Origin: Lathyrus oleraceus
Lineage: Eukaryota > Streptophyta > Magnoliopsida > Fabales > Fabaceae
NCBI RefSeq assembly: GCF_024323335.1
Contig: NC_066581.1
Coordinates: forward strand, 458,697,197 to 458,761,196
Direction of reading: 5' to 3'
DNA: 64,000 nt
Below the pieces are notes generated by a model. That model was not told the origin of the DNA and ran no database searches. It was given only the letters and a program-made list of their open reading frames with translations. The stretch's first letter is position 1, and every line of letters begins with the position of its first letter. This document shows, in pieces, positions 5,865-56,694 of the stretch. Made by a program: the position numbers and the translations under genes.

Positions 5865-6525
5865 GCATGTTGCCTCTTAATTATATTATGCCTCATCATA
5901 GTTGATAAGACTTGTTGTAGATGTCAATTATCCATCACAAGATTACGCTAACAAAGGTAATATCAATCCTTTCTACAATTCTCTTATCGCTAAGTGATTG
6001 TGTATGTTAGAACAAATGTTCTTACTCTAGTTGATATAAATTTGATTGCATATATTCCTTGCCTATATTGTGTGCACATTAACAATCTAACTTCTGAATC
6101 TTTCTTGGGCATAACCATCATGACATAGTGCATAATGCATATCCATACTGCATCAAAATTCACTAAAAGCTGGTTCAGCATCAGTATGCATCGACACAAA
6201 AGAAGTATGCATCGATCCATACATTCTGGAATTCAATTTTTTAAAAACTGGTTCAGGATGCATCGATGCACCCATCGCATGTATCGATACACAGGCCAAA
6301 TGTGAATAATAGGCATCGATGCATGACCATTTGCATCGACACATACTGATGCTATTTGAATTAAATGCATTTTTTTTCTCTCTCATGCATCGACACATCA
6401 GCCAATCCTATCACTTCCTATCTCAAGACTTCATATCATCTGTCCTCAAAAACCCCAAAACCAGTGGCTAACCCTAATCTTCCTCATCTTCACTCTCTCT
6501 CAAAAACCCTAAATCTCACATCACC
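5865..6525 (+). other. Sirevirus spacer between pol and ORF2 (copy 1)
   Basis: About 660 bp of non-coding leader for ORF2. It holds the palindrome pairs described separately and a pyrimidine-rich tract with caaaaaccctaaatctcac just before the ORF2 ATG. No TATA box stands out. Short ORFs on either strand are translations of the palindromes. Confidence 0.7.
6186..6394. repeat. ATCGAT palindrome pairs upstream of ORF2 (copy 1)
   Basis: Cores start at 6190/6211, 6262/6283 and 6315/6335 (spacings 21, 21 and 20 bp). A weaker fourth pair of ATGCAT cores lies at 6365/6385. Each core sits in a larger imperfect palindrome such as tatgcatcgatccata. The same type of array recurs in the LTR U3 of this element. 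Confidence 0.85.
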
Positions 6526-7596
6526 ATGCCTCCACGCACTATTCCAGCCAGAGCAAAAGGAAAAGGAAAGGGAAAGGAAACAGCCGGTACTTCTCAGCAA
6601 CCACCAGATGTTCCTTCAAATGCCTTAGACCTACTTCATCCTGCTATTGCTGCTGAATTTGAGGAATCCTTCAAGATAAGGTTAGTCATGAAACCCCATG
6701 TCTTTGATAAAACAGGTGCTATTCACCTACACCTAAATGAGGTGGTTGAACTCCTACATGCACAAAGACTTGGGTCACTTCTGTCCACAAAGGATGATTA
6801 TCATGAGGATTTCATCCGGGCCTTTTATGCTGGCTTACAAACTGGTAGAGGCTATATGTTCCGGTGTTCTATCGGTGTCAGAACATATACCTTTGAAGCC
6901 TCTGATTGGGAAACGGTATTTCAAATTCCGCATCCGTCGATGACTGTCAAGTCCTGGCATGACCTGCATTTTGATCCTGAATTTGACATGAAGGACTTTA
7001 CTCCATCTATCCTAAAGATAGACAGACCGTTGAGTGAGGATGAAGAAATGCAGGATGCGCCTGAAACAGATGTGCCTCAAGCTGAGGCCAATGCTGGTTG
7101 GGGAGATTGGGTGCCACGGAGGTGGTCTCCCACCAACTACGTACCTGAACCTACAGCCCCTCCATTCTCAGGTGGTACTTCATCCTCAATACCTACTGCG
7201 GACATCACTCATATGCTTCAACAGATGGAAATTGCTAACAAAGAACGCCATGAAGAAGCACGGTATTGGAATGTACAACAATCTGAGTGGCACAAGGAGC
7301 ATCGTGACTGGCATGATGAGCATACACGGATGTATCAGAATCAACACGCTTGGCACCAAGACTTGGTTAAATGGCATCAAGTTTTCTACAACGAAATGTC
7401 TGGCTTTATGGACGACTGCCGTGAAAATCCTGGTATCATGGACAGCTTTAGAAGCATTGAAGTTCAAAACCGATTTAGGCAATACTCCTTCATGGGCCAA
7501 AATCCAGACACAATGCCTCCTCTTCCGCCTCCACCAAGCTACAGAGATCCTACCAGAGATGATGAAGAGTCCTGTGGTGGCAACCATCCAAATTAA
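6526..7596 (+). CDS. Sirevirus ORF2 (env-like position), internally deleted, copy 1
   Basis: A 356-residue ORF between pol and the 3' LTR. It starts at an ATG after a pyrimidine-rich leader. The N-terminus is basic (KGKGKGKE). Residues about 40-170 resemble the putative plant transposon protein domain found in such ORFs (FIRAFYAGL, then a segment like VRTYTFEASDWETVFQIP). At about residue 172 an in-frame loss of 151 codons is seen against the minus-strand copy at 47927-49450. Residues about 230-290 form a Trp/His-rich heptad segment with Trp at 248, 255, 262, 276 and 283. The C-terminus is Pro-rich (PPPPSY) and acidic. No signal peptide or membrane helix is evident. The function is unknown; 'env-like' refers only to position. 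Confidence 0.75.
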   Translation: MPPRTIPARAKGKGKGKETAGTSQQPPDVPSNALDLLHPAIAAEFEESFKIRLVMKPHVFDKTGAIHLHLNEVVELLHAQRLGSLLSTKDDYHEDFIRAFYAGLQTGRGYMFRCSIGVRTYTFEASDWETVFQIPHPSMTVKSWHDLHFDPEFDMKDFTPSILKIDRPLSEDEEMQDAPETDVPQAEANAGWGDWVPRRWSPTNYVPEPTAPPFSGGTSSSIPTADITHMLQQMEIANKERHEEARYWNVQQSEWHKEHRDWHDEHTRMYQNQHAWHQDLVKWHQVFYNEMSGFMDDCRENPGIMDSFRSIEVQNRFRQYSFMGQNPDTMPPLPPPPSYRDPTRDDEESCGGNHPN

Positions 7597-7959
7597 CCCA
7601 CCATCATTTCATATCACTGCATTTCATCTCATACTGCTCAAGTTTCTAATTTTGTTGCACAATATATGGTTTAGCTTATGTAATTCTTAAACTCGTTTGA
7701 ATACTTAAATGCTTTTCACTTTATGTTTATCTCTATGGTTATTGCCCTTATTCGTCATTCTTTGTGAATGATTCTTTACTTTGTGAATGATAGTTTTTTA
7801 TCAATTTCTGCCATGCCCTGCTGCAACATGCTACCTTGTTTACCCTGTTCCTTCCTCTTTTTGATGTTGACAAAGGGGGAGAAAATGCAGATATGCACAA
7901 ACTCAGGGGGAGCATCACACATCTTGCCAAGAATTTGCCATCATCAAAAAGGGGGAGTT
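7597..7959 (+). promoter_or_regulatory. Repeated polypurine tracts before LTR1
   Basis: Non-coding. Three GGGGGAG tracts lie at 7873-7883 (aaagggggaga, preceded by ttgatgttgac), 7904-7912 (cagggggag) and 7946-7957 (aaaaagggggag). The last one directly abuts the LTR and would prime plus-strand DNA synthesis. Multiple tracts of this form are typical of Sireviruses. Confidence 0.8.
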
Positions 7960-8163
7960 TGTGAGAAAATTCTTTACTTTGAATTAATTTTGAATGATAG
8001 CAAATTGTGTGATCATCATCCATACGTTAGCTGTGCATTACATTACATGATACATTTGTGTTTTTATTGTGGTTTTATCCCATTTTATTGTTGCATAACT
8101 TTACATAAAGACCTACATTGACACATCTCTTAAAATAACACATAAAATCCATTTTGTGTCAGT

Positions 8164-8478
8164 ATGCATCAACACATAAGCCTATGCATCGATACATACT
8201 GCATGTGGTATATCACAAAACTCCTTTTGTTCAGTATGCATCGATGCATACGAGTCATGCATCAATACATGAAAGGCAAAAGGCTTTATGCATCGATACA
8301 TGACCAATTGAAACAGCCTGTGTATCAATGCATACGCATTAGGCATCGATACATGCTAGTGGAAAAATCACATGCATCAATACATACGAATTATGCATCG
8401 ATACATGATTAATCAATTTCACCAAAAATTCACTTATCTTACAGTATGCATCGATGCATACTCTCATGTATCAATGCA
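8164..8478. repeat. Paired ATCGAT palindromes in U3 of LTR1
   Basis: Core starts: 8168/8188, 8240/8261, 8292 (partner lost), 8324/8345, 8376/8397 and 8450/8470. Within-pair spacing is 20 or 21 bp. Cores are ATCGAT or one-base variants (ATCAAT, ATCAAC) inside arms such as tatgcatcgatgcata. The array ends about 45 bp before the TATA box. Confidence 0.88.
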
Positions 8479-8520
8479 TAAAGCTGTTTTTGCTCTCTAA
8501 TAGTTTCTGTTGTTGCTGCA

Positions 8521-8528
8521 TATATAAG
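8521..8528 (+). promoter_or_regulatory. TATA box of LTR1
   Basis: TATATAAG in the context gctgcatatataagacatg, just downstream of the palindrome array. The same box is present in the other two LTRs of the array. Confidence 0.6.
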
Positions 8529-9635
8529 ACATGTTATGACAGCAGTGAAATGAGACGAATTCTTAGAGGGAAAACAATTGAACACAAGATCAAAAGCAGT
8601 GTTGGAGCAATTGTTTGAGAGCACATAGAAACCTGAAAGAGACTTCATCTTCTTCATATTCTCAATCACTTTTCTTCAAGAACATCAACACATAATAATT
8701 CTTGTTCTTTGGATTAAAGGATTATCGAGATAACGTTCAGTGGTACGATCAAGGATCTAGCTGTGGTTTTCAGCGGAACGATCGAGGATCTAGCTGAGTT
8801 GAAGATTGAAGGGGGTTTCTAGGAAAAACCTACTGGTTTATCCTTCAAGAACTGGAGTGTTCTTGAGGGTTTGGGAGTCACGTTTGCAGAACAGATTCAG
8901 CCGCAGCGTTGCGTTTGGAGATCGGGGGATTTCGCAATCAGGTCGTGGAACCGGTGAATTGTTTGCAATTTCGTGCAGGAAATTCTTGATCGTGCTCAGA
9001 TCAAGTGAAGGTTCATACAAGAAGAAGTTCTTGGAATTTAGAATTCTGTCTTTGTATCATAACCTTGTATCAACGGATTCGGCAATAATTGATAATCAAA
9101 GTTCTCAATTTCATTTGAAATTGAGAGGGAGACGTACCCACACGCGAGGACGACGTGGGGAACTTCCTTACCAAATCTCTGCGTATCGTATTCTTACCTT
9201 ACTCCTTTTTACGTTTAAAACAGTTTTCGCAATTTCAGTTAGTGTGTGTTGTGATTGTTCCTTTTGCAAGACAGCAGTGGCAAGAAAACAATTTCAATTA
9301 AACACCACTGCTGTTCATCATTGATCACATACACACCAACTGTTTGACAAAATTGTTAGCTAGGTTTTATTCATTGGAAATAGACTTTAATGATAAGTGC
9401 ATTCAATTAGCTAAAATTCTGGTGTGGATTGTTCCTATCATTCTTATTCAAATCCAGCATTAAGCTCGTGTGTCCGGTTTTCTAGTAGCGGTTCAGAATA
9501 GACGGAAGTCGATTCGGGACTAAATTTTTCCGCCAATTTTAAAAACTCTGATAAAACTTTAAATCCGTTAAATTTCAAAGAGGTGATCTATTCACCCCCC
9601 CCCCCTCTCGATCACTAGCCACACCGTCTAACAAG

Positions 9636-9647: not shown

Positions 9648-9684
9648 GCCGGTTCGCTGGTGCTCTGTGGCTGCCTGTAACAGT

Positions 9685-11463
9685 ATGGATTCTGAACCAA
9701 AGGGGGCGTATAATAGAGCGCCTATTTTCAACGGTGAAAATTACGGCTACTGGAAAGACTGCATGCGAGTTCATATAAATTCTGTGGATAGGTTAGTATG
9801 GGCTGCCATTGAAAATGGTCCGTTTCAAATTACTATGACAAATGCGGCTGGCGCCATAGTACCTAAACCAGAAGACGATTGGAATGAGAAAGATGAGAAA
9901 AAGTGGTCGTGTGATTGGAAAGCTCGAAACATGCTAATCTCAGCACTTGGTGTTGATGAGTATTATCGAGTATCTCATTGCACGACAGCTAAAGAAATGT
10001 GGGATGCTTTAGAAGTTGCCCATGAGGGTACTACTGAAGTAAAACAGTCCCGCATTAACACACTCAATCAAGAATTTGAGCTCTTTCGCATGAAACAAGG
10101 AGAATCTATCTCCGACATGCAAAAGAGATTCACTCATCTAACTAACCGATTGAATGCGCTTGGAAAACCTATTTCCAATGAAATTGCTACTAATAAAATT
10201 CTCAGGTGTCTTAGCAGGGAGTGGCAACCTAAAGTAACAGCAATTAAGGAAGCCAACGATCTTACAAGACTTACGATTACAACTCTGTTTGGAAAGCTGG
10301 AAGAACATCAGCAAGCTTTGGAAAGTCTTGAAAAATATGAGAATAAAAGTAAGAAGGAAAAGGAGAATAAAAGAGACAAAGAGGGAGAGAAGAAGCCAAT
10401 AGCTCTTGTGGCCTCTAGCTCTAAGTCCTCACGAAAAGAGCAAAGCGACAATGATTCAAGTAGTGACAAAGACTCGGATGATGAGGAAATGGGACTGTTT
10501 GTAAGGAGATATAATAGATTCATTCGAAAGAATGGAGTCAAGCATTCTGACAAAAATCTCATGAAGTTTCGAAGACAATCTATAAACTCGAAACAAGAAG
10601 AGAACAAGAAGAGTAGAGGAAGAGGATCCTGCTTTAATTGTGGAAAATCTGGACATTATAAAACGGACTGCCCTATGAAGTATAAGGATCAAAGAAAAGA
10701 TTCACCAAAAGGGTACATCAAACAAAGAAGAGCGTACATTGCATGGGAAAGTGATAGTGATTCATCAAGCACACAAAGCTCAAGTGATGGTGATGAAGCT
10801 GCAAATCTGTGCCTTATGGCTCACACAAAAAATCTGTCCTACCACAAGAAGAAAAACAATGACAAAAAGGTAAAACAAGCCTATTACAATAATTTCTCCT
10901 CTATGTCTTTTTCGGAACTAAAAATAGCTTTTGAAAAACTGCATAACGAAGCTGTAGATGCTTTTAAAAGACTATCTTCCGACAAACATATTTTCTCATT
11001 TTTGGAAGGTAAAGTAAACAAAGCTGAAATTGATTTAGAAGCGTTGAAAGCTAGTATTGCAGAAAATTCAAAAACTATTGACATTGATGGATGTAGTAGA
11101 GTTAGGTATTGTGACGCTTGTTATATTTGGCAAAAAGAGGTAAACACTCTTAAGGTCAAATTAAAGAAAGCGCTACAACCTAAAGTTACTTATGCCGTTG
11201 ACTCTAGGTTGTTTAATAAGTCATTAAATCCTCCATATGCAAAATACTCGTTTATTCTAAAGGATTCAATGAACAAGAAACAACAAACACATCATCATGG
11301 TTTATGTCATTATTGTTGTCATGCTGGCCATACCATTGAGAAATGCAAATTTAGGAGATTTCTTGTCCCTAAAGGTATTTATCAATGGAAGCCAAAAGGC
11401 AACCATGTTAGCACTTACCCACTTGGACCCAATGAAAATTGGGTACCAACTTCTCTCTTTTGA
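9685..11463 (+). CDS. gag: Sirevirus Gag, copy 1
   Basis: 592 residues from the first ATG (MDSEPKG); the frame is open further upstream but only from a GTG. The N-terminal half is the copia-type capsid region (FNGENYGYWKDCM near residue 20, then a UBN2-like segment to about 200). A highly charged Lys/Glu/Ser region follows. A CX2CX4HX4C zinc knuckle lies at 10630-10672, then a coiled-coil-rich segment, and a second knuckle (CHYC...H...C) at 11305-11346. It packages element RNA into virus-like particles. It ends with TGA; pol starts eight bases downstream in the -1 frame. No disabling mutation is visible. Confidence 0.92.
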   Translation: MDSEPKGAYNRAPIFNGENYGYWKDCMRVHINSVDRLVWAAIENGPFQITMTNAAGAIVPKPEDDWNEKDEKKWSCDWKARNMLISALGVDEYYRVSHCTTAKEMWDALEVAHEGTTEVKQSRINTLNQEFELFRMKQGESISDMQKRFTHLTNRLNALGKPISNEIATNKILRCLSREWQPKVTAIKEANDLTRLTITTLFGKLEEHQQALESLEKYENKSKKEKENKRDKEGEKKPIALVASSSKSSRKEQSDNDSSSDKDSDDEEMGLFVRRYNRFIRKNGVKHSDKNLMKFRRQSINSKQEENKKSRGRGSCFNCGKSGHYKTDCPMKYKDQRKDSPKGYIKQRRAYIAWESDSDSSSTQSSSDGDEAANLCLMAHTKNLSYHKKKNNDKKVKQAYYNNFSSMSFSELKIAFEKLHNEAVDAFKRLSSDKHIFSFLEGKVNKAEIDLEALKASIAENSKTIDIDGCSRVRYCDACYIWQKEVNTLKVKLKKALQPKVTYAVDSRLFNKSLNPPYAKYSFILKDSMNKKQQTHHHGLCHYCCHAGHTIEKCKFRRFLVPKGIYQWKPKGNHVSTYPLGPNENWVPTSLF

Positions 11464-11471
11464 TATTGTAG

Positions 11472-14400
11472 GATGAGTGCCTTGCCTCCGCAGATAGAAG
11501 GTGGTTTCTTGACAGCGGCTGCTCGAGGCACATGACCGGTGACATATCGCTTTTCATAGACTTCAAGGCAAAGAAGAAGGGATATGTTACTTATGGAGAC
11601 AATAACAAAGGAGCTATACTCGGCAAAGGTACTGTAGGTAATCCCTCCACCACTACTATTTCAAATGTCCACCTAGTAGAGGGACTTAAACACAATTTGT
11701 TAAGCATAAGTCAACTATGCGACATGGGCTATAAAGTTTCGTTCACAAAAACTTGCTGCATAATTGAACATGCTGAACAGAACATTGTGTTTAAGGGTGT
11801 AAGAGTAAACAATATCTATATGCTTGACCTGTTTGATGTACCTTTAACAAGTACTAAATGTCTAGTCACCTTGAATGATGATTCTTGGCTTTGGCATAGA
11901 CGTTTAGCGCATGTTAATTTCGATTTGCTTAATAAGGTTGTATCTAAGGATCTAGTAGTCGGTCTACCAAAAATAAAATTTTCAAAAGACCACCTATGTG
12001 ATGCGTGCCAAATGGGAAAGCAAACGAGGGTCTCTTTTAAATCTAAAAACGTAATTTCAACTTCACGACCCCTTGAGCTTCTCCATATGGATCTCTTTGG
12101 ACCTTCTAGGACAAAGAGCCTAGGTGGAAATTACTATGGCTTTGTAATAGTTGATGACTACTCTAGATTTTCTTGGACTATATTCCTTCATAGCAAAGAT
12201 GAAACTTTTTCTGCTTTTAAAAACTTTGCAAATCTGTCCCAAAACAAAATGAATTCCAAAATAGTTACAATTCGTAGCGATCATGGTGGTGAGTTTCAAA
12301 ATTATCACTTTGAGAAGTTCTGTGACAAGTATGGCATTGAGCATAATTTTTCAGCTCCTCGAACTCCACAACAAAATGGCGCTGTGGAGCGTAAAAATCG
12401 TGTTTTAGAGGAGTTGGCAAGAACAATGCTTAATGAGGGCGGATTACCAAAATACTTTTGGGCTGATGCTGTAAGCACAGCCTGTTATGTTTTAAATAGA
12501 ATCTTAATTCGCCCTATTTTAAATAAAACTCCTTATGAACTTTTGAAAGGAAGAAAACCAAACTTGTCACATCTTCACGTATTCGGTTGTAAATGTTTTG
12601 TTTTGAATAACGGTAAGGAAAATATTGGGAAGTTTGATGCAAAAGCGGATGAAGGTATCTTTCTTGGTTACTCACTGTCAAGTAAAGCATATAGAGTGTA
12701 TAATAAGCGTTTACTTACTGTTGAAGAATCTGTTCATGTTTCTTTTGATGAGTCTTATCCGAAAAATGTCGGAAAAGGTATTTCTTTTGATGACGCAGGT
12801 GTATCTACAGCAGACATACTCAAGGAAGCTGTTGAGGAAACTGATCAGTCCAAAACAGCTGCCCATGAGAAGGAGGAAGATACTAGTCACGAAGAAAATG
12901 AGGAAGAAAAGACAGCTGAAGTGAAGAATCTTCCAACAGCTTGGAAATCCTCAAAAGACCATCCCATTGACAACATCTTGGGAGACATTTCAAAGGGAGT
13001 AATGACCCGGTCTAAGATAAGTAATTTTTGTTCTCACTTCGCGTTTGTTTCACAAGTAGAACCTAAAAATGCCAAAGAGGCCTTGATTGATGAATTTTGG
13101 CTAATGGCCATGCAAGAAGAGCTTAATCAATTTAAAAGAAATGACGTTTGGGAACTTGTCCCTCGTCCGCGAGATCATCATATCATAGGCACTAAGTGGG
13201 TTTTTAGAAATATGCTTGATGAAAACGGAGTGATTACTAGGAACAAGGCACGTTTAGTAGCACAAGGGTATAACCAAGAGGAGGGCATAGACTATGAGGA
13301 AACTTATGCTCCAGTTGCTCGCCTTGAAGCTATACGTCTTTTGCTTGCCTATGCGTGTTCTAAGGATTTTAAGCTTTACCAAATGGACGTAAAGAGTGCT
13401 TTTCTTAATGGTGTCATAAATGAAGAAGTATATGTTTCACAACCTCCTGGTTTTGAAAATGCTGAAAATCCAGATCATGTTTACAAATTAAAACGAGCTT
13501 TGTATGGTCTTAAACAAGCCCCTCGGGTTTGGTATGAAAGGCTTAGCAAATTCCTAATTGATCATGGATATTCAAGAGGCAATGTGGACAATACTCTCTT
13601 TATTAAACACAAAGGGAAACACATTCTTTTAGTTCAAGTTTATGTCGACGATATAATATTTGGTTCAACTAACATACACTTGGTCGAAGAATTTTCTAAG
13701 GTTATGCAGGGTGAATTTGAGATGAGTCTAATGGGGGAGCTGAACTACTTCCTAGGACTGCAAATAAAGCAACTTGATGAGGGTACAGCAGTATGTCAAA
13801 CAAAATACTGCAGAGAACTACTCAAGCGCTTTGGAATGAATGACTCAAAATCAATTGACACCCCAATGCCTACTAACAGAAATCTAGATAAGGATGAGCA
13901 TGGTAAGTGTGTAGATGTCAAAAAGTTCAGAGGTATGATTGGATCTCTCTTGTATCTTTCTGCTTCTAGACCTGACATCATGTTTAGTGTTTGTATGTGT
14001 GCACGCTATCAATCAAATCCTAAGGAGTCGCACCTAAAAGCGGTGAAGCGCATATTTAGATATCTTCACGGAACACCTAAATATGGGCTTTGGTATTCCA
14101 AAGGAAGTGATTGTAGTTTAGTAGGGTACTCTGATTCTGATTTTGCTGGCTGCAAATCAGATAGGAAAAGCACAAGTGGTACATGTCACCTGTTTTCAAA
14201 TTCCTTGGTAAGTTGGCATAGCAAAAAGCAAGTTTCTGTGGCTTTGTCAACTGCAGAGGCAGAATACGTTGCAGCCGGTAGTTGTTGCGCTCAGATTTTA
14301 TGGCTGAAGCAGCAACTACAAGACTTCAACATTCAACTCAAATGTATTCCTATAAAATGTGACAACACTAGTGCCATAAACCTTACTAAAAACCCCGTTT

Positions 14401-14597
14401 TACACTCACGCACTAAACACATAGAGATTAGACATCACTTTCTTCGCGACCATGTTGAAAAAGAAGACGTTGTATTTGAGCACGTTGACTCCAAAAATCA
14501 GCTTGCTGATATTTTCACTAAACCTTTGGCAACGGAACCTTTCTTCAATATTCGTCGTGAATTAGGGATCTTAGATCTTTCTCATTTGATGTCTTAA
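11472..14597 (+). CDS. pol: Sirevirus Pol polyprotein, copy 1
   Basis: About 1,041 codons open from just after TAG 11469-11471; the first ATG is 11532. Domains in order: aspartic protease active site DSG at 11511-11519 (upstream of that ATG); HHCC zinc-binding motif 11894-12010; integrase core with Asp 12090, Asp 12279 and Glu 12387; a charged linker; copia-type reverse transcriptase with YVDD at 13641-13652; RNase H from about 14100 (SDSDFAG, AEAEY) to the end. All expected catalytic residues are present and there is no internal stop, so the frame looks intact. Because the protease motif precedes the first ATG, Pol is presumably made by some recoding from gag. Compared with copy 2 it has a few amino-acid differences (for example Asn at about 13583 where copy 2 has Lys). 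Confidence 0.92.
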
Positions 14598-15257
14598 GCA
14601 TGTTGCCTCTTAATTATATTATGCCTCATCATAGTTGATAAGACTTGTTGGAGATGTCAATTATCCATCACAAGATTACGCTAACAGAGGTAATATCAAT
14701 CCTTTCTACAATTCTCTTATCGCTAAGTGATTGTGTATGTTAGAACAAATGTTCTTACTCTAGTTGATATAAATTTGATTGCATATATTCCTTGCCTATA
14801 TTGTGTGCACATTAACAATCTAACTTCTGAATCTTTCTTGGGCATAACCATCATGACATAGTGCATAATGCATATCCATACTGCATCAAAATTCACTAAA
14901 AGCTGGTTCAGCATCAGTATGCATCGACACAAAAGAAGTATGCATCGATCCATACATTCTGGAATTCAATTTTTTAAAAACTGGTTCAGGATGCATCGAT
15001 GCACCCATCGCATGTATCGATACACAGGCCAAATGTGAATAATAGGCATCGATGCATGACCATTTGCATCGACACATACTGATGCTATTTGAATTAAATG
15101 CATTTTTTTCTCTCTCATGCATCGACACATCAGCCAATCCTATCACTTCCTATCTCAAGACTTCATATCATCTGTCCTCAAAAACCCCAAAACCAGTGGC
15201 TAACCCTAATCTTCCTCATCTTCACTCTCTCTCAAAAACCCTAAATCTCACATCACC
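14598..15257 (+). other. Spacer between pol and ORF2 (copy 2) with palindrome pairs
   Basis: Same as 5865-6525 apart from scattered SNPs and one T fewer in the T-run near 15104. The ATCGAT palindrome pairs lie at about 14918-15126 with the same 20-21 bp spacing. Confidence 0.7.
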
Positions 15258-16691: not shown

Positions 16692-18365
16692 TGTGAGAAA
16701 ATTCTTTACTTTGAATTAATTTTGAATGATAGCAAATTGTGTGATCATCATCCATACGTTAGCTGTGCATTACATTACATGATACATTTGTGTTTTTATT
16801 GTGGTTTTATCCCATTTTATTGTTGCATAACTTTACATAAAGACCTACATTGACACATCTCTTAAAATAACACATAAAATCCATTTTGTGTCAGTATGCA
16901 TCAACACATAAGCCTATGCATCGATACATACTGCATGTGGTATATCACAAAACTCCTTTTGTTCAGTATGCATCGATGCATACGAGTCATGCATCAATAC
17001 ATGAAAGGCAAAAGGCTTTATGCATCGATACATGACCAATTGAAACAGCCTGTGTATCAATGCATACGCATTAGGCATCGATACATGCTAGTGGAAAAAT
17101 CACATGCATCAATACATACGAATTATGCATCGATACATGATTAATCAATTTCACCAAAAATTCACTTATCTTACAGTATGCATCGATGCATACTCTCATG
17201 TATCAATGCATAAAGCTGTTTTTGCTCTCTAATAGTTTCTGTTGTTGCTGCATATATAAGACATGTTATGACAGCAGTGAAATGAGACGAATTCTTAGAG
17301 GGAAAACAATTGAACACAAGATCAAAAGCAGTGTTGGAGCAATTGTTTGAGAGCACATAGAAACCTGAAAGAGACTTCATCTTCTTCATATTCTCAATCA
17401 CTTTTCTTCAAGAACATCAACACATAATAATTCTTGTTCTTTGGATTAAAGGATTATCGAGATAACGTTCAGTGGTACGATCAAGGATCTAGCTGTGGTT
17501 TTCAGCGGAACGATCGAGGATCTAGCTGAGTTGAAGATTGAAGGGGGTTTCTAGGAAAAACCTACTGGTTTATCCTTCAAGAACTGGAGTGTTCTTGAGG
17601 GTTTGGGAGTCACGTTTGCAGAACAGATTCAGCCGCAGCGTTGCGTTTGGAGATCGGGGGATTTCGCAATCAGGTCGTGGAACCGGTGAATTGTTTGCAA
17701 TTTCGTGCAGGAAATTCTTGATCGTGCTCAGATCAAGTGAAGGTTCATACAAGAAGAAGTTCTTGGAATTTAGAATTCTGTCTTTGTATCATAACCTTGT
17801 ATCAACGGATTCGGCAATAATTGATAATCAAAGTTCTCAATTTCATTTGAAATTGAGAGGGAGACGTACCCACACGCGAGGACGACGTGGGGAACTTCCT
17901 TACCAAATCTCTGCGTATCGTATTCTTACCTTACTCCTTTTTACGTTTAAAACAGTTTTCGCAATTTCAGTTAGTGTGTGTTGTGATTGTTCCTTTTGCA
18001 AGACAGCAGTGGCAAGAAAACAATTTCAATTAAACACCACTGCTGTTCATCATTGATCACATACACACCAACTGTTTGACAAAATTGTTAGCTAGGTTTT
18101 ATTCATTGGAAATAGACTTTAATGATAAGTGCATTCAATTAGCTAAAATTCTGGTGTGGATTGTTCCTATCATTCTTATTCAAATCCAGCATTAAGCTCG
18201 TGTGTCCGGTTTTCTAGTAGCGGTTCAGAATAGACGGAAGTCGATTCGGGACTAAATTTTTCCGCCAATTTTAAAAACTCTGATAAAACTTTAAATCCGT
18301 TAAATTTCAAAGAGGTGATCTATTCACCCCCCCCCCCTCTCGATCACTAGCCACACCGTCTAACA
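16692..18365 (+). repeat. Sirevirus LTR2
   Basis: 1,674 bp, the same length as LTR1 and almost identical, shared between the two complete internal regions. Palindrome pairs 16896-17210, TATATAAG 17253-17260, and an 11-C run before the end. Confidence 0.92.
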
Positions 18366-23329: not shown

Positions 23330-23989
23330 GCATGTTGCCTCTTAATTATATTATGCCTCATCATAGTTGATAAGACTTGTTGTAGATGTCAATTATCCAT
23401 CACAAGATTACGCTAACAGAGGTAATATCAATCCTTTCTACAATTCTCTTATCGCTAAGTGATTGTGTATGTTAGAACAAATGTTCTTACTCTAGTTGAT
23501 ATAAATTTGATTGCATATATTCCTTGCCTATATTGTGTGCACATTAACAATCTAACTTCTGAATCTTTCTTGGGCATAACCATCATGACATAGTGCATAA
23601 TGCATATCCATACTGCATCAAAATTCACTAAAAGCTGGTTCAGCATCAGTAGGCATCGACACAAAAGAAGTATGCATCGATCCATACATTCTGGAATTCA
23701 ATTTTTAAAAACTGGTTCAGGATGCATCGATGCACCCATCGCATGTATCGATACACAGGCCAAATGTGAATAATAGGCATCGATGCATGACCATTTGCAT
23801 CGACACATACTGATGCTATTTGAATTAAATGCATTTTTTTTCTCTCTCATGCATCGACACATCAGCCAATCCTATCACTTCCTATCTCAAGACTTCATAT
23901 CATCTGTCCTCAAAAACCCCAAAACCAGTGGCTAACCCTAATCTTCCTCATCTTCACTCTCTCTCAAAAACCCTAAATCTCACATCACC
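23330..23989 (+). other. Spacer between pol and ORF2 (copy 3) with palindrome pairs
   Basis: Same layout as the previous spacers. Palindrome pairs at about 23650-23858. One arm base differs (aggcatcgac near 23651), and the T-run near 23706 is one base shorter than in the other copies. Confidence 0.7.
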
Positions 23990-25422: not shown

Positions 25423-27129
25423 TGTGAGAAAATTCTTTACTTTGAATTAATTTTGAATGATAGCAAATTGTGTGATCATCATCCATACGTTAGCTGTGCA
25501 TTACATTACATGATACATTTGTGTTTTTATTGTGGTTTTATCCCATTTTATTGTTGCATAACTTTACATAAAGACCTACATTGACACATCTCTTAAAATA
25601 ACACATAAAATCCATTTTGTGTCAGTATGCATCAACACATAAGCCTATGCATCGATACATACTGCATGTGGTATATCACAAAACTCCTTTTGTTCAGTAT
25701 GCATCGATGCATACGAGTCATGCATCAATACATGAAAGGCAAAAGGCTTTATGCATCGATCCATACGATCCCTGCATCGATACATGACCAATTGAAACAG
25801 CCTGTGTATCAATGCATACGCATTAGGCATCGATACATGCTAGTGGAAAAATCACATGCATCAATACATACGAATTATGCATCGATACATGATTAATCAA
25901 TTTCACCAAAAATTCACTTATCTTACAGTATGCATCGATGCATACTCTCATGTATCAATGCATAAAGCTGTTTTTGCTCTCTAACAGTTTCTGTTGTTGC
26001 TGCATATATAAGACATGTTATGACAGCAGTGAAATGAGACGAATTCTTAGAGGGAAAACAATTGAACACAAGATCAAAAGCAGTGTTGGAGCAATTGTTT
26101 GAGAGCACATAGAAACCTGAAAGAGACTTCATCTTCTTCATATTCTCAATCACTTTTCTTCAAGAACATCAACACATAATAATTCTTGTTCTTTGGATTA
26201 AAGGATTATCGAGATAACGTTCAGTGGTACGATCAAGGATCTAGCTGTGGTTTTCAGCGGAACGATCGAGGATCTAGCTGAGTTGAAGATTGAAGGGGGT
26301 TTCTAGGAAAAACCTACTGGTTTATCCTTCAAGAACTGGAGTGTTCTTGAGGGTTTGGGAGTCACGTTTGCAGAACAGATTCAGCCGCAGCGTTGCGTTT
26401 GGAGATCGGGGGATTTCGCAATCAGGTCGTGGAACCGGTGAATTGTTTGCAATTTCGTGCAGGAAATTCTTGATCGTGCTCAGATCAAGTGAAGGTTCAT
26501 ACAAGAAGAAGTTCTTGGAATTTAGAATTCTGTCTTTGTATCATAACCTTGTATCAACGGATTCGGCAATAATTGATAATCAAAGTTCTCAATTTCATTT
26601 GAAATTGTGAGGGAGACGTACCCACACGCGAGGACGACGTGGGGAACTTCCTTACCAAATCTCTGCGTATCGTATTCTTACCTTACTCCTTTTTACGTTT
26701 AAAACAGTTTTCGCAATTTCAGTTAGTGTGTGTTGTGATTGTTCCTTTTGCAAGACAGCAGTGGCAAGAAAACAATTTCAATTAAACACCACTGCTGTTC
26801 ATCATTGATCACATACACACCAACTGTTTGACAAAATTGTTAGCTAGGTTTTATTCATTGGAAATAGACTTTAATGATAAGTGCATTCAATTAGCTAAAA
26901 TTCTGGTGTGGATTGTTCCTGTCATTCTTATTCAAATCCAGCATTAAGCTCGTGTGTCCGGTTTTCTAGTAGCGGTTCAGAATAGACGGAAGTCGATTCG
27001 GGACTAAATTTTTCCGCCAATTTTAAAAACTCTGATAAAACTTTAAATCCGTTAAATTTCAAAGAGGTGATCTATTCACCCCCCCCCCCCCCCCCCCCCC
27101 CTCTCGATCACTAGCCACACCGTCTAACA
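25423..27129 (+). repeat. Sirevirus LTR3, right end of the array
   Basis: About 1,707 bp, longer than LTR1 and LTR2. It retains an extra 21-bp palindrome unit near 25757-25777 and has a 23-C run (27079-27101) where the others have 11. TATATAAG at 26005-26012. It ends CTAACA at 27129 and is followed by aggttcaccaaaaccctag. No matching 5-bp target duplication can be found because the left end of the array is truncated. Confidence 0.9.
25627..25965. repeat. Paired ATCGAT palindromes in U3 of LTR3 (fullest plus-strand version)
   Basis: As in LTR1, but the pair that is single at 8292 is complete here: two ATCGAT cores 21 bp apart around 25755 and 25776. This gives six full pairs upstream of the TATA box. 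Confidence 0.85.
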
Positions 27130-34366: not shown

Positions 34367-34378
34367 TGGTATCAGAGC
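34367..34378 (+). promoter_or_regulatory. Primer-binding site of the Tekay-like element
   Basis: TGGTATCAGAGC, an exact complement type for initiator tRNA-Met, four bases after the LTR. Confidence 0.9.
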
Positions 34379-34607: not shown

Positions 34608-36790
34608 GTGCTTTTCCTGAACCCGAAGAGAGGTCGGATTCGAGGATGGTGTTGGTTAGAAGTTAATCGGGTGTATATCAATTGTTTCGAGAAGACGGTT
34701 ATCTTTCCTGAGGTTGGTGCGAAGGAAGATTGGTTTGTGTCTGCTAAGCAAGTTGATGAATCGGTGCAAGATGGTGCCGAGTTGTTCATGTTGTTGGCAA
34801 CTTGGGATATTCGTGAGAAGAGGACGATCGAAGAATTGCCAATAGTTTGTGAGTTTGCGGAGGTATTTCCGGAAGATATAAGTGATTTACCGCCGGAACG
34901 TGAGGTTGAGTTTTCGATTGATTTAGTTCCTGGAACTAGTCCTGTATCGATGGCTCCCTATCGAATGTCTGCTTCTGAGTTGAAAGAGTTGAAGAGTCAA
35001 CTTGAAGACTTGCTCGAGAAGAAGTTTATTCGTCCTAGTGTGTCGCCGTGGGGTGCAGCTGTTCTGTTGGTCAAGAAGAAAGAAGGTTCTATGAGGTTAT
35101 GTGTTGATTATAGACAACTAAATGAAGTGACGATTAAGAACAAGTATCCACTTCCGAGGATTGACGATCTGATGGATCAGCTGGTTGGAGCTTGTGTGTT
35201 TAGCAAGATTGATTTAAGGTCTGGGTATCATCAGATTCGTGTAAAGGCTGAGGATATTCAAAAGACTGCTTTTCGGACAAGGTACGGTCACTACGAGTAC
35301 TCCGTGATGCCTTTTGGTGTGACCAATGCACCTGGTGTATTTATGGAGTATATGAATAGGATTTTTCATGATTATCTGGATAAGTTTGTTGTTGTGTTCA
35401 TCGACGATATATTGATTTATTCTAAGAGTGAAGAGGATCATGCCGAGCATTTGAAGGTTGTGTTATCGGTGTTGAAAGAGAGGAAGTTGTTTGCTAAACT
35501 CTCTAAATGTGAGTTTTGGTTGAGTGAAGTAAGTTTTCTTGGACATGTGATTTCGAGTGGTGGTATTTTTGTGGATCCTACGAAGATTGAAGCTGTATCT
35601 CAGTGGGAAGCTCCTAAGTCTGTGGCTGAGATTAGAAGTTTTCTTGGTTTGGCTGGTTATTATAGGTAGTTCATCGAAGGATTTTCTAAGTTATCGTTAC
35701 CATTGACGCAGTTGACTAGGAAAGGTCAAGCTTTCATTTGGACTTCGCAGTGTGAAGCGAATTTTCAAGAGCTTAAGAGAAGATTGACTACGGCTCCTAT
35801 TTTGATTTTACCGGATCCGTTAGAAACTTTCGTTGTGTATTGTGATGCTTCTTTGTTGGGTTTGGGAGGTGTTCTGATGCAAAAAGGGCAAGTGGTATCT
35901 TATGCTTCAAAGCAACTTAAAGTTCATGAGAAGAATTATCCGACGCATGATTTAGAGTTGGCCGCCGTTGTGTTTGCGTTGAAGCTTTGGAGACATTATT
36001 TGTTTGGGTCGAGGTTTGATGTGTTTAGTGATCACAAGAGTTTGAAGTACTTGTTCGATCAGAAAGAATTGAATATGAGGCAAAGGAGATGGTTAGAATT
36101 CTTGAAAGATTATGATTTTGGTTTGAATTATCATCCTGGAAAGGCGAATGTTGTAGCCGATGCATTGAGTAGGAAGTCATTGCACATGTCTATGTTGATG
36201 ATTCAAGAGTTTGAATTGTTTGAGCAATTTAGAGATTTGAGTTTGGTTTGTGAAGCGACGTCTTCGTGTGTTAAGCTTGGGATGTTAAAGCTTACGTGTG
36301 GCATTCTTGACGAGATTAGAGAAGGTCAGAAGTCAAATTTGAAATTAGTCGATGTTATGACATTGATTAATCAAGACAAAGGTGGTGACTTTCGGATTGA
36401 TGAGAATGGTATCATGAGGTGTCGTGATCGAGTTTGTGCTCCGGATGTTGCGGATTTGAGAAAGAGGATTCTTGAGGAAGGGCATAGAAGTGGTCTGAGT
36501 ATTCATCCTGGTGCTACTAAAATGTATCAAGACTTGAGAAAGATGTTTTGGTGGCAAGGTATGAAGAAGGATGTAGCGAAATTTGTGTATGCATGTCTGA
36601 CTTGTCAAAAGTCAAAGATTGAACATCAAAAGCCGTCTGGTTTGATGCAACCGTTATCTATTCCCGAGTGGAAGTGGGATAGTATCTCTATGGATTTTGT
36701 TTCGGGCTTGCCGAGAACATCGAGTAATTATGAGGCGATTTGGGTCGTTGTGGACAGGTTGACGAAGTGTGCTCATTTTATACGGAGCTC
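34608..36790 (+). pseudogene. pol: Tekay-like Pol: RT-RNase H-partial integrase, with one nonsense codon
   Basis: One continuous frame broken by a single TAG at 35667-35669, immediately after the motif FLGLAGYYR. Upstream are the reverse transcriptase motifs ([26 protein letters not shown] around 35400). Downstream are RNase H ([19 protein letters not shown]), the integrase HHCC zinc region (IHPG, then CLTC near 36595-36607) and the first catalytic Asp of the core (SMDFV). The frame runs into foreign LTR sequence shortly after TKCAHF. Nothing marks a real start: the open frame before the RT begins in spacer or deleted protease sequence. Non-functional as it stands. Confidence 0.9.
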
Positions 36791-37132
36791 TGAATTCCTT
36801 ATTGCACTATAAGGATATGTAGGCATGAGGGGCCCAATCCTCACCGAGCACTTTATCTATTTCTTTTCCTTTTCCCCTTCTTTTGCGAGTAATCTTTAGA
36901 TATCAAACCTATTTGAGCGAGAACAATCAAAATGGTTCCCATGGAATACCATGGATGTTAGGGGTGCTAATACCTTTCCCTTGCATAACCGACTTCCTTA
37001 CCCATTATATCTCTTTCCCCCAGGTTTTATCGATGTTTTCCCTTTCCTTCGGGAATAATTAAAGTTCGATGGCGACTCTGTTGCATGTTCGAGCATGCGA
37101 TACGTTCGAGTATATTTCCGCTAGCTTCAACA
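36791..37132 (+). repeat. End of the second-family LTR (R/U5)
   Basis: Begins ttccttattgcactataaggatatgtagg and contains a pyrimidine-rich stretch, gggaataattaaagttc and the primer-site-like TGGCGACTCTG at 37070-37080. It ends about ccgctagcttcaaca. It probably rejoins 27130-31606 once the Tekay-like insertion is removed. Exact limits are uncertain by tens of bases. Confidence 0.5.
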
Positions 37133-43497: not shown

Positions 43498-44410
43498 CTT
43501 ATCACTAAATTCTAATTCCAATGAATAAAACTCAGCTGACAGTTTTGTCAAACATTTGGTGTGTATGTGATCAATGATGAACAATGGTGGAGTTTAGATA
43601 AAGAAGTTTTCTTGCCACTATTGTATCACGAAATGTACAGTCACAATACACCAACTGAAATCACAAAATTGTTGAAAACGTAAAGATAGATAAGGAAAGA
43701 ATACGATACGCAAAGATTTGGTAAGGAAGTTCCCCACTGTCGTCCTCGCGTGTGGGTACGTCTCCCTCTCAATTTCAAATGAAATTGAGAACTGTTGTTA
43801 TCAATAATGCCGAATTCGTGGATACAAGGTTACAATACAAAGACAGAAATCTAAATCCCAAGATCTTCTCCTTGTATAAAACCTCCACTTGATCTGAGCT
43901 CGATCAAGAATTTCCTGCAAGAAATTGCAAACAATTCACCGGTTCCACGACCTGTTTGCGAAATTACCCAATTTCCAAACCCTACGCTACGGCTGAATCT
44001 GTTCTGCAAACGTGACTAACAAACCCGCAAGAACACTCCAGTTCTTGAAGGACAAACCATTTGGTTTTTCCTCGAAACCCCCTTCAACCTTTAACTCAGC
44101 TAGATCCTCGATCGTTCCACTGAACACCTCAGCTAGATCCTTGATCGTTCCACTGAACGTTATCTCGTTGATCCTTTAATCCAAAGAACAAGAATGATTA
44201 TGTGTTGATGTTCTTGAAGAAAAAAGATTGAGAAGATGAAGAAGATGAAGTCTCTTTCAGGTTTCTAACTGCTCAAAACAATTGCTGCTACACACTCCTT
44301 TGATTTGTGTTACAACTGTTTTTCTCTTCTGAATTCGTACTATTTAACTGAGTTGTCAAAATACTTCTTATATGTGAAAGACAGAAGCTGTTAGTAGATA
44401 AAACAGAATT

Positions 44411-44765
44411 ATGTATTGATACAAAAGATTATGCATCGATACATACTGTAGCTTTGATTAATTTTAGAGAATTAATACAAGCATGTATCGATACAAAGCT
44501 CGTATGTATCGATACATAGAACATTTTAACTAAGCATGTATCGATACAAAGCTCGTATGTATCGATACATAGAACATTTTAACTAAGCATGTATCGATAC
44601 AAAGCTCGTATGTATCGATACATACTGAAGCAAAAACGTTTTGTGATTTAAAACAAATTTATGTATCGATGCAGATGAACATGTATCGATACATACTGAC
44701 ACAAAACAGTTTTTATGAGTTCTTTTAAGAAATGTATCAATGTGGATCTTTATGTATAGACACGA
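44411..44765. repeat. Paired ATCGAT palindromes in U3 of LTR-a
   Basis: Core starts 44415/44435, 44487/44508, 44540/44561, 44593/44614, 44665/44685 and 44736/44756, with within-pair spacings 20, 21, 21, 21, 20 and 20. Three consecutive pairs are inside a 53-bp tandem repeat. The typical arm is gtatgtatcgatacatac. Confidence 0.9.
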
Positions 44766-44887
44766 AACAATAGTATAGGCTAAAAACACAAATGAAACAT
44801 GTAAAATAATGCACAACCAACAATTAGACAATGATCAAACAATTTGCTATCATTCAAAACTTATTCAAAGTAAAGAATTTGCTCACA

Positions 44888-45920: not shown

Positions 45921-47530
45921 TGTTAGACGGTGTGGCTAGTGATCGAGAGGGGGGGGGGGGGGTGAATAGATCACCTCTTTTAAATAAACGGATTTAAAAA
46001 ATCTTATCAGAGTTATTGAAACTTAGCGGAAAATTACAGTCCCGAATCGACTTCCGTCTAATCTGAACCGCTACTAGAAAACCGGACACGCGAATTTATT
46101 GCTGGATTTGAATAGGAATGATAGAGATTATTAACACCAGAATATTATCAAATCAAATGCACTTATCACTAAATTCTAATTCCAATGAATAAAACTCAGC
46201 TGACAGTTTTGTCAAACATTTGGTGTGTATGTGATCAATGATGAACAATGGTGGAGTTTAGATAAAGAAGTTTTCTTGCCACTATTGTATCACGAAATGT
46301 ACAGTCACAATACACCAACTGAAATCACAAAATTGTTGAAAACGTAAAGATAGATAAGGAAAGAATACGATACGCAAAGATTTGGTAAGGAAGTTCCCCA
46401 CTGTCGTCCTCGCGTGTGGGTACGTCTCCCTCTCAATTTCAAATGAAATTGAGAACTGTTGTTATCAATAATGCCGAATTCGTGGATACAAGGTTACAAT
46501 ACAAAGACAGAAATCTAAATCCCAAGATCTTCTCCTTGTATAAAACCTCCACTTGATCTGAGCTCGATCAAGAATTTCCTGCAAGAAATTGCAAACAATT
46601 CACCGGTTCCACGACCTGTTTGCGAAATTACCCAATTTCCAAACCCTACGCTACGGCTGAATCTGTTCTGCAAACGTGACTAACAAACCCGCAAGAACAC
46701 TCCAGTTCTTGAAGGACAAACCATTTGGTTTTTCCTCGAAACCCCCTTCAACCTTCAACTCAGCTAGATCCTCGATCGTTCCACTGAACACCTCAGCTAG
46801 ATCCTTGATCGTTCCACTGAACGTTATCTCGTTGATCCTTTAATCCAAAGAACAAGAATGATTATGTGTTGATGTTCTTGAAGAAAAAAGATTGAGAAGA
46901 AGAAGAAGATGAAGTCTCTTTCAGGTTTCTAACTGCTCAAAACAATTGATGCTACACACTCCTTTGATTTGTGTTATAACTGTTTTTCTCTTCTGAATTC
47001 GTACTATTTAACTGAGCTGTCAAAATACTTCTTATATGTGAAAGACAGAAGCTGTTAGTAGACAAAACAGAATTATGTATTGATACAAAATATTATGCAT
47101 CGATACATACTGTAGCTTTGATTAATTTTAGAGAATTAATACAAGCATGTATCGATACAAAACTCGTATGTATCGATACATAAAACATTTTAACTAAGCA
47201 TGTATCGATACATAGAACATTTTAACTAAGCATGTATCGATACAAAGCTCGTATGTATCGATACATACTGAAGCAAAAACGTTTTGTGATTTAAAACAAA
47301 TTTATGTATCGATGCAGATGAACATGTATCGATACATACTGACACAAAACAGTTTTTATGAGTTCTTTTAAGAAATGTATCAATGTGGATCTTTATGTAT
47401 AGACACGAAACAATAATATAGGCTAAAAACACAAATGAAACATGTAAAATAATGCACAACCAACAATTAGACAATGATCACACAATTTGCTATCATTCAA
47501 AACTTATTCAAAGTAAAGAATTTGCTCACA
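45921..47530 (-). repeat. Sirevirus LTR-b
   Basis: 1,610 bp, TGTTAGACGG...TTTGCTCACA on the plus strand. It is bounded on the low side by a primer site and gag fragment (as a 5' LTR) and on the high side by a polypurine tract (as a 3' LTR), so it serves two internal regions. It has a 14-G run near its start. Palindromes at about 47079-47405. Diagnostic bases at its U3 end (acaataatatagg; gatcacacaatt) differ from LTR-a and LTR-c. Confidence 0.9.
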
Positions 47531-49450: not shown

Positions 49451-50122
49451 GGTGATGAAAAATTGAAGAAAAGTGAGATGAATTTAGGGTTTTAGAGAGA
49501 ATGATGATGAAGGAGATTAGGTTTAGCCGCATGTTTTGAGAGGTAGGGGAACTGCTGATACCAAGTTTGTGAAAAGATGTGATAAGAATTGCTGATGTGT
49601 CGATCCATGAGTGAAATAAAATGCATTTAATCCAAATAACAATCAGTATGTGTCGATGCATATGGGAATGGATCGATCCATGTCACGTATTTTTGTTTTT
49701 AAAGGGTCTATGTATCGATACAAACGACGAATGAATCGATACATACTGAACCAATTTTGTAAGATGTGAAATGAAGAAGACATGAATCGATACATACATC
49801 TTTGAATCGATACATACTGATACCAAACCAAATTTTAATTAATTTTTATGCAGTATGGTTATGCATTATGAAGTATGTCATGATAATGATGCCCAAGTAT
49901 AATTCACAAATCAGATATTAATGTTCAAACAATATATGCAAAGAAATTCACATAAACGAAAATAAGGATTTTTGTTCTAACATACACAATCACATAGTTC
50001 TAAAAGAGATATAGAAATGAGTGATATTACCTCTGTTGATGTAACCTTGTGAGGTATAAATGAAATCTAAAACAAATCTCATCAACCAAGGTGAGGCATA
50101 ATATAAATAAGAACGAACATGC
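49451..50122 (-). other. Spacer between pol and ORF2 with palindrome pairs (minus Sirevirus)
   Basis: Non-coding. Palindrome pairs have cores at 49652/49672 (20 bp), 49714/49735 (21 bp) and 49786/49806 (20 bp), plus a single cgatcc-type core near 49590. The sequence has diverged from the plus-strand spacers, but pair number and spacing are kept. Confidence 0.8.
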
Positions 50123-55086: not shown

Positions 55087-56694
55087 TGTTAGACGGTGTG
55101 GCTAGTGATCGAGAGGGGGGGGGGCGTGAATAGATCACCTCTTTTAAATAAACAGATTTAAAAAATCTTATCAGAGTTATTGAAACTTAGCGGAAAATTA
55201 CAGTCCCGAATCGACTTCCGTCTAATCTGAACCGCTACTAGAAAACCGGACACGCGAATTTATTGCTGGATTTGAATAGGAATGATAGAGATTATTAACA
55301 CCAGAATATTATCAAATCAAATGCACTTATCACTAAATTCTAATTCCAATGAATAAAACTCAGCTGACAATTTTGTCAAACATTTGGTGTGTATGTGATC
55401 AATGATGAACAATGGTGGAGTTTAGATAAAGAAGTTTTCTTGCCACTATTGTATCACGAAATGTACAGTCACAATACACCAACTGAAATCACAAAACTGT
55501 TGAAAATGTAAAGATAGATAAGGAAAGAATACGATACGCAAAGATTTGGTAAGGAAGTTCCCCACTGTCGTCCTCGCGTGTGGGTACGTCTCCCTCTCAA
55601 TTTCAAATGAAATTGAGAACTGTTGTTATCAATAATGCCGAATTCGTGGATACAAGGTTACAATACAAAGACAGAAATCTAAATCCCAAGATCTTCCCCT
55701 TGTATAAAACCTCCACTTGATCTGAGCTCGATCAAGAATTTCCTGCAAGAAATTGCAAACAATTCACCGGTTCCACGACCTGTTTGCGAAATTACCCAAT
55801 TTCCAAACCCTACGCTACGGCTGAATCTGTTCTGCAGACGTGACTAACAAACCCGCAAGAACACTCCAGTTCTTGAAGGACAAACCATTTGGTTTTTCCT
55901 CGAAACCCCCTTCAACCTTCAACTCAGCTAGATCCTCGATCGTTCCACTGAACACCTCAGCTAGATCCTTGATCGTTCCACTGAACGTTATCTCGTTGAT
56001 CCTTTAATCCAAAGAACAAGAATGATTATGTGTTGATGTTCTTGAAGAAAAAAGATTGAGAAGATGAAGAAGATGAAGTCTCTTTCAGGTTTCTAACTGC
56101 TCAAAACAATTGATGCTACACACTCCTTTGATTTGTGTTACAACTGTTTTTCTCTTCTGAATTCGTACTATTTAACTGAGCTGTCAAAATACTTCTTATA
56201 TGTGAAAGACAGAAGCTGTTAGTAGACAAAACAGAATTATGTATTGATACAAAATATTATGCATCGATACATACTGTAGCTTTGATTAATTTTAGAGAAT
56301 TAATACAAGCATGTATCGATACAAAACTCGTATGTATTGATACATAAAACATTTTAACTAAGCATGTATCGATACATAGAACATTTTAACTAAGCATGTA
56401 TCGATACAAAGCTCGTATGTATCGATACATACTGAAGCAAAAACGTTTTGTGATTTAAAACAAATTTATGTATCGATGCAGATGAACATGTATCGATACA
56501 TACTGACACAAAACAGTTTTTATGAGTTCTTTTAAGAAATGTATCAATGTGGATCTTTATGTATAGACACGAAACAATAGTATAGGCTAAAAACACAAAT
56601 GAAACATGTAAAATAATGCACAACCAACAATTAGACAATGATCAAACAATTTGCTATCATTCAAAACTTATTCAAAGCAAAGAATTTGCTCACA
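55087..56694 (-). repeat. Sirevirus LTR-c (5' LTR)
   Basis: 1,608 bp, with TGTTAGACGG and GCTCACA ends, followed by the target duplication TGATC at 56695-56699. Its palindrome array (about 56239-56570) shares a partial-unit loss with LTR-b. Its U3 end matches LTR-a at two diagnostic sites. Confidence 0.9.

Follow-up and report, generated by a model that had tools for sequence, protein, structure and literature searches.

Palindromes set at near-whole helical turns in the U3 region of pea Sireviruses, and a homologous array in a Ty3/Ogre-like element

When palindromes are found lined up at regular distances upstream of a retrotransposon promoter, the question arises as to what keeps the distances regular: selection for helical phase or duplication of an inherited unit? 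This question is raised by a stretch of pea (Lathyrus oleraceus) DNA of 64,000 nucleotides (NC_066581.1, positions 458,697,197 to 458,761,196; hereafter, the window). Its preliminary description held that the U3 region of a Sirevirus is built from pairs of ATCGAT palindromes 20-21 bp apart, and that this layout reflects selection for two helical turns rather than simple tandem duplication. The array is real; the observation is borne out in part, and so is the interpretation.

The carrier of the array is a plus-strand, head-to-tail tandem (LTR-internal-LTR-internal-LTR) that occupies positions 5817-27131 with a period of 8,731-8,732 bases. The compared stretches of LTR1 and LTR2 show 1 difference in 1741 aligned sites, and the third LTR stretch shows 34 differences in 1734 sites, a number inflated by unrelated sequence past the LTR end. 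The main features of the element are as follows:

7950..7957, plus strand: polypurine tract (PPT) AGGGGGAG, starting 10 bp before the LTR
7960..9633, plus strand: LTR1, TGTGAG...CTAACA, about 1.67 kb, with a poly-C tract near the 3' end
8521..8527, plus strand: TATA box TATATAA, following the U3 array
9667..14597, plus strand: gag (Retrotran_gag_2, zf-CCHC) and pol (rve before RVT_2), two ORFs in Copia order

The rules by which Sireviruses are recognized from the PPT, the junction with the PBS, and the poly-C signal are taken here from the relevant passages of Bousios et al. 2010 (PMC2829016). In the ORF at 11532-14597, rve (residues 178-279) precedes RVT_2 (residues 537-779), which is the Copia order. 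The PPT AGGGGGAG, located 10 bp upstream of the 3' LTR, is accompanied by several copies in the linker: GGGGGAG tracts are found at 7951, 7906 and 7875, the terminal one preceded by A and standing before TGTGAG. The junction rule (CA / A(T or G)TGG / PBS TATCAGAGC) is followed by two minus-strand copies, B and C (CTAACA-AGTGG-TATCAGAGC); plus copies 1 and 2 read CTAACA-AGCTG-TATCAGAGC, with intervening letters that depart from the rule. Near the end of the LTR, a run of C ahead of TCTCGATCAC represents the poly-C integrase signal. Thus, domain order, PPT, PBS and poly-C support the assignment of the element to Sireviruses by its traits, in agreement with the preliminary description. The same window contains, at 34608-36812, ORFs for a Ty3-type RT, RNase H and integrase zinc domain that belong to another element, with a TGGTATCAGAGC motif at 34367.

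A 14-mer search shows that the U3 region of this Copia element holds 11-12 dyad-symmetric 14-mers resembling ATGNATCRAYNCAT. The array begins 204 bp into the LTR and stops, as had been claimed, before the TATA box. The U3 arrays of the window are:

8164..8479, plus strand: U3 array of LTR1, 11 units of 14 bp, spacings 20, 52, 21, 31, 32, 21, 31, 21, 53, 20
16896..17211, plus strand: U3 array of LTR2, same layout as LTR1
25627..25963, plus strand: U3 array of LTR3, 12 units, with one additional 21-bp unit
44411..44694, minus strand: U3 array of diverged subfamily copy A, 10 units (4 mismatches allowed in the count), spacings 20, 51, 21, 32, 21, 32, 21, 52, 20
47075..47337, minus strand: U3 array of diverged subfamily copy B, 9 units
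56239..56501, minus strand: U3 array of diverged subfamily copy C, 9 units

All cores named earlier (8168, 8188, 8240, 8261, 8292, 8324, 8345, 8376, 8397, 8450 and 8470) were recovered by this search, the within-pair distance is indeed 20-21 bp, and the single core at 8292 does have a partner 21 bp away in LTR3; another, weaker unit precedes the first LTR1 pair by 51 bp. The pairs exist, but they are not pairs of ATCGAT: this exact core is found in 6 of the 11 LTR1 units, the remaining cores being ATCAAT or ATCAAC, so that each of the five LTR1 pairs combines one ATCGAT with one ATCAA(T/C). Nor does the minus-strand subfamily show six pairs; five were found (20, 21, 21, 21, 20; ten units) at 44411-44694. 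At a GC content of 0.369, the window contains 64 copies of ATCGAT against 12.66 expected (sd 3.62; maximum of 100 shuffles, 23), and ATGYATCGATRCAT occurs 28 times against 0.00 expected from shuffles. Across the 36 units of four window arrays, positions 2, 4, 5, 6, 8, 11 and 12 are invariant and positions 3 and 10 vary most, in a profile where the search template itself favours conserved positions. An apparent asymmetry of the unit in the same 36 units (C6 kept, G7 often A) was set aside, as C6 also varies in the Ogre-like arrays described below. Within the window, the stretches 43496-45656 and 55324-57463 are duplicates of one another with 98% identity; the duplicated part takes in the beginning of a minus-strand Sirevirus LTR together with the flanking sequence.

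Palindromes of the same kind recur inside the element, a second set that the preliminary description leaves unmentioned:

6186..6398, plus strand: internal (linker) array, 7 units, spacings 21, 51, 21, 32, 20, 54, preceding the env-like ORF
14919..15130, plus strand: internal array of the second tandem copy, spacings 21, 51, 21, 32, 20, 53
23651..23862, plus strand: internal array of the third tandem copy, spacings 21, 50, 21, 32, 20, 54
49595..49815, minus strand: internal array of the diverged subfamily, 7 units, spacings 20, 51, 21, 42, 20, 53 (the first 20 read by eye; the script gave 8+12)
6526..7596, plus strand: ORF in ENV-like position, 356 aa

The mid spacer of the minus-strand internal array is 10 bp longer than that of the plus copies. 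The 356-aa ORF, which we call env-like from its position, had no match in Pfam; a homologue is a Lathyrus oleraceus protein with 84% identity over 37% of the query.

How does this array relate to those already known? According to the passages of PMC2829016 that deal with them, the RM repeats of Sireviruses are palindromic, come in 8-32 copies, and sit before the TATA box and in the linker before ENV; a regulatory role was proposed for them without experiment, and they were called Sirevirus-specific in comparison with other Ty1/copia elements, Ty3 elements being outside that comparison. The pea array resembles the RMs, as these passages depict them, in its palindromic, multi-copy nature and linker copies, and in the accompanying multiple PPTs and poly-C. 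An RM cluster comprises at least 8 palindromes, starts 200-400 bp into the LTR upstream of the TATA box, and has linker copies before ENV; the pea array has 11-12 units, starts at position 204, and is matched by the array at 6186-6398 ahead of the ORF at 6526-7596. The core is different: 12 of 13 RMs in the same passages carry CGG-CCG, whereas the pea core is ATCGAT, a departure shared by Tnd-1, which the authors nevertheless kept in their set. Since the CGG-CCG signature is lacking, we name the pea array an RM-like cluster of a Sirevirus and not a typical RM. The RM of tobacco Tnd-1, ACAATCGATTGT, listed in Table 3 of the same paper with 8 LTR copies, is similar to the pea unit in its central ATCGAT, its dyad symmetry and its repetition in the LTR, but, as far as these passages go, its outer half-sites are different (ACA..TGT versus ATG..CAT) and it has no linker copies. 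The LTR of maize Sireviruses, as rendered in passages citing a 2016 study that discusses small RNAs and rapid evolution, likewise has a palindrome-rich regulatory part, the likeness being one of description. Sirevirus arrays as such are, hence, a known feature, and the present data go further in two respects, the quantised spacing and the Ogre-like carrier: the RM passages of PMC2829016 yielded no rule of spacing or phase, and titles and abstract openings among the papers listed yielded neither phased spacing nor an array common to Copia and Ty3 elements, although prior mention is possible. Among the matches listed for the letters ATGCATCGAT, none looked relevant by title.

The spacing is quantised. 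The six distinct window layouts have a best period of 10.35-10.45 bp (8-14 bp scanned) with a vector strength of 0.92-0.97, and a jitter null, in which each spacing is shifted by up to 5 bp, gives p values from 5e-5 to 2e-3. Given that units are duplicated, a fair test should let every spacing class count once, as one event; with class lengths that are our own averages, p is then 0.025 when two classes are used, 0.0025 with three (those of two, three and five turns) and 1.5e-4 with four. The earlier statement that distances between pairs vary misleads: within the U3 arrays of the window, these distances take the values 31/32 or 51-53 bp, on a lattice of about 10.45 bp, and the paired two-turn layout, while present, is only part of a lattice of two, three and five turns.

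The same lattice is seen across the genome. An exact two-site pattern with spacings of 14-44 bp has 7,043 matches in 3.80 Gb (3,527 + 3,516; exact matches only, and one site may count on both strands), compared to 0 for the reversed control; there are 0 matches at 22-28 bp, 7 at 29, 5 at 33 and 0 at 34-41 bp, followed by 14 at 42, 4 at 43 and 10 at 44 bp (counted from the listed matches). A sample of 61 arrays (49 Sirevirus U3, 5 internal and 7 other; neighbours up to 90 bp) was assembled from five window U3 arrays, the window internal arrays and LTR2 being left out, and 56 genome arrays. Twenty of the latter were fetched from 42 similarity matches to the window U3 (L009 and L010, with 9.2 kb between them, probably represent both LTRs of a single element), and 36 were taken, one per element, from 100 listed of the 7,043 matches, with second LTRs and one duplicate place dropped. 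The 61 arrays (32 distinct layouts) are related copies rather than independent trials, and 20 of them came in through their similarity to the window U3. Of their 655 neighbour spacings, 650 fall within 1.5 bp of n x 10.45 bp; the exceptions are 28 bp (L027), 34 bp (L021) and 44 bp three times (L019, L026, L038). A period was fitted in 60 arrays, in all but L039, which has two units only yet contributes to the 655 spacings; the median of the best period is 10.45 for the 48 Sirevirus U3 arrays and the 5 internal ones. Thus, the predicted excess at 20/21 bp is there, both genome-wide (14-44 bp) and in the 61 arrays (up to 90 bp), but the spacings also pile up at 30-32 and, in the 61 arrays, 51-53 bp, and the ranges between are empty. 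Thirteen further loci, picked for odd spacing, were kept out of all statistics; among them is L080, with a gap of 59 bp. Four loci (L076, L077, L078, L079) hold distant degenerate arrays of like palindromes (for example, 52, 20, 52, 21, 43, 20, 41), the flanks of three of the four matching neither the window nor the Ogre-like references, and L074, L076 and L081 show plain 21-bp steps (21, 21 or 21, 21, 21). The 21-bp-step layout may be ancestral, with some wider gaps arising from unit decay. Viral and genome contig collections, searched for wider relatives, gave no usable match, as expected for plant DNA.

Not all carriers of the array are Sireviruses. Seven of the 36 arrays of the C1 sample, at loci in the first 78.6 Mb of C1, have no similarity to Sirevirus flanks, and six of these seven occur in pairs 12.6-19 kb apart. 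The element that we checked, C1:32996190-33019231 (L067, L069-L072), is 23,042 bp long, with LTRs of about 4,896 bp that are 99.6-99.8% identical in two compared stretches, a TSD of ATTCC on both sides, and the domains Retrotrans_gag, RVT_1, RT_RNaseH and RVT_3, followed by the integrase (rve), which is the Ty3 order. We take it to be Ogre/Tat-like by its traits (long LTR, second RNase H domain); the features that mark this group, namely Ty3 order, a second RNase H, a very long LTR and a 5-bp TSD, are all present in this one element. Its array is located about 679-1021 bp into the LTR, in the same orientation and before TATAAGAG near 1186. This U3 palindrome array distinguishes it from Ogre/Tat elements of Ty3, for whose LTRs titles and abstract openings among the papers listed gave no description of such an array. 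L048 belongs to the LTR of the checked element; the remaining six array loci resemble that LTR at 90-93%, and its internal region is matched at 66-90% by a fragment of another Ogre-like element. All seven arrays align best with minus-subfamily copy A, on the same strand and at 70-80% identity, and at L048 and L066 the match to copy A stops about 11 bp past the last palindrome. The Ogre-like spacings are mostly 20/21 and 30-32 bp, with some of 52/53; their best period is 10.25 bp, and at 10.45 bp they are poorly in phase (R 0.39). A homologous array is, then, common to the U3 of a Copia Sirevirus and that of a Ty3/Ogre-like element, a carrier at odds with a restriction of such repeats to Sireviruses, which had been drawn from a comparison within Ty1/copia. 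Transfer from Sireviruses to the Ogre-like elements seems more likely than the reverse, given that the Sirevirus arrays show the greater diversity and stand in two places.

What, then, maintains the spacing? Unit duplication clearly spreads the array and accounts for much of its regularity: two identical 53-bp units adjoin within 44411-44694, and a 21-bp unit was gained or lost between LTR1 and LTR3. Because gains and losses involve whole units, phase is kept automatically. To set phase selection in place of duplication, as the preliminary description did, was therefore too strong, with 21- and 53-bp unit duplication at work, and selection for helical phase is suggested but not proven. It is conceivable, although we incline against it, that inheritance is the whole explanation: an ancestral tandem unit (21 bp, or 21 + 31/32 bp) would have been duplicated and the spacing would be its relic, free of selection for phase, while the palindromes may still be binding sites. 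Besides the identical adjoining units and the 21-bp gains and losses between close copies, this explanation draws on the mid spacers of Ogre-like elements and Sireviruses, which look homologous despite a 2-bp change in length, and on wide gaps that are sums of units with a decayed palindrome, such as 73/74 bp at L046, 52 = 21+31 in Ogre-like arrays, and 42 = 21+21 with a degenerate middle unit at L074, L076 and L081, three loci that, for this reason, are not counted for phase selection. In the Sirevirus 51-53-bp gaps, the palindrome fits slightly above average at +21 and +31 (6.4 versus an average of 7.5 mismatches), but these are only the fifth and sixth best offsets, and a decayed unit is not evident. 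Inheritance also has to contend with 42-43-bp spacers that are not 21+21 and differ in sequence (internal arrays L073 and L080, a U3 deletion at L075, U3 array L028 and distant arrays L077-L079), alongside a genome scan that is empty at 34-41 bp. One inherited tandem unit thus explains part of the spacing and not all of it, because the 51-53-bp gaps are not plainly a repeat unit and the varied 42-43-bp spacers fit the lattice.

The comparison of LTR1 with minus copy C bears on both explanations. In seven hand-aligned palindromes, 13 of 98 positions differ, versus 38 of 91 in the spacers (Fisher 1.5e-5); the rest of the LTR differs at 189 of 1336 positions, so that whole palindromes are no better kept than their surroundings (Fisher p 1.0), which led us to lower our estimate for the phase model and to raise that for inheritance alone. 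With positions 3, 7 and 10 left out, a choice made after seeing the profile, 4 of 77 positions differ (p 2e-8 versus spacers, 0.025 versus LTR). The spacers, 42% diverged between the subfamilies, still agree in length within 1 bp, which speaks against mere inheritance; a neutral inheritance simulation of mid-spacer length was not rejected (P 0.06-0.30), which makes such stability not improbable without selection. The evidence is, hence, divided: in favour of selection are the 51-53-bp gaps, the 10-bp longer minus mid spacer and the varied 42-43-bp spacers, and against it are the spacers of 44, 34 and 28 bp, the 10.25-bp period of the Ogre-like arrays, the neutral length simulation and the TATA distance. 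The centre of the last palindrome lies 52.5 bp from the TATA centre in LTR1 versus 47.5 bp in the minus subfamily, and phase with the TATA box was rejected on these grounds. Changes in spacer length are about -8 to -11 and +10, with a few of 2-3, versus control indels in the LTR flanks with sizes (at least 3) of 3, 3, 3, 3, 4, 5, 6, 8, 9, 12 and 61; too few for a test, they suggest that half-turn changes are avoided. Grouping the spacers by sequence was given up, because almost all of them became linked in one chain.

With this division in mind, we lean, by a little, towards a cis-regulatory model with helical phase. The array would be a regulatory module of the LTR, in which a host protein acting as a dimer recognizes each of about 9-15 sites of 14 bp with dyad symmetry; dyad symmetry and the position upstream of the TATA box make a dimeric DNA-binding protein the candidate reader. 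Neighbours close to whole turns (2, 3, 4 or 5) apart would place the bound proteins on the same DNA face upstream of the LTR promoter, where they might cooperate and affect transcription. Recombination between palindromes would multiply or remove units with the spacing kept, and selection would keep the fixed palindrome letters and, less certainly, the phase. A like module would act before the Sirevirus env-like ORF, and the homologous one in the Ty3/Ogre-like U3 would most likely be Sirevirus-derived. A bolder version, in which a portable, enhancer-like module read by one host protein on one helix face has moved between Copia and Ty3 elements, brings them under a shared regulator and has its phase under selection, strikes us as rather doubtful when taken as a whole.

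As for the identity of the protein, EIN3/EIL factors were considered and rejected: their site AYGWAYCT (given in passages of PMC5220190, PMC4283510 and PMC9573389) has a single occurrence on the two strands of 26,461 bp of array; the half-site ATGTATC, which has 7 of its 8 letters, is kept only as a lead. The array could, alternatively, act as RNA, with the transcribed 3' U3 folding into hairpins between neighbouring palindromes that would serve retrotransposition or as a source of small RNAs. The predicted RNA folds are strong (z -6.15 and -13.60), and Sirevirus LTR palindromes are small-RNA hotspots in maize, as passages of PMC5311732 report; yet any palindrome array folds well, and hairpins have no need of quantised three- and five-turn distances. 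In 101 distinct Sirevirus pairs 20-21 bp apart, 1123 of 1414 base pairs are formed, compared to 1125.5 (sd 4.3) after shuffling, so that partners show no covariation. Selection for RNA hairpins was rejected on this ground, and an RNA module seems to us improbable.

The phased cis-regulatory model can be approached experimentally: one genome holds two-site matches by the thousand on a lattice of about 10.45 bp, with rare off-phase copies among them, and this lends itself to a direct test of cooperative binding platforms. The homologous array of the Ogre-like element implies that regulatory modules are able to pass from one retrotransposon superfamily to another, a point relevant to the question of how elements without common descent might share a regulator within a large legume genome.
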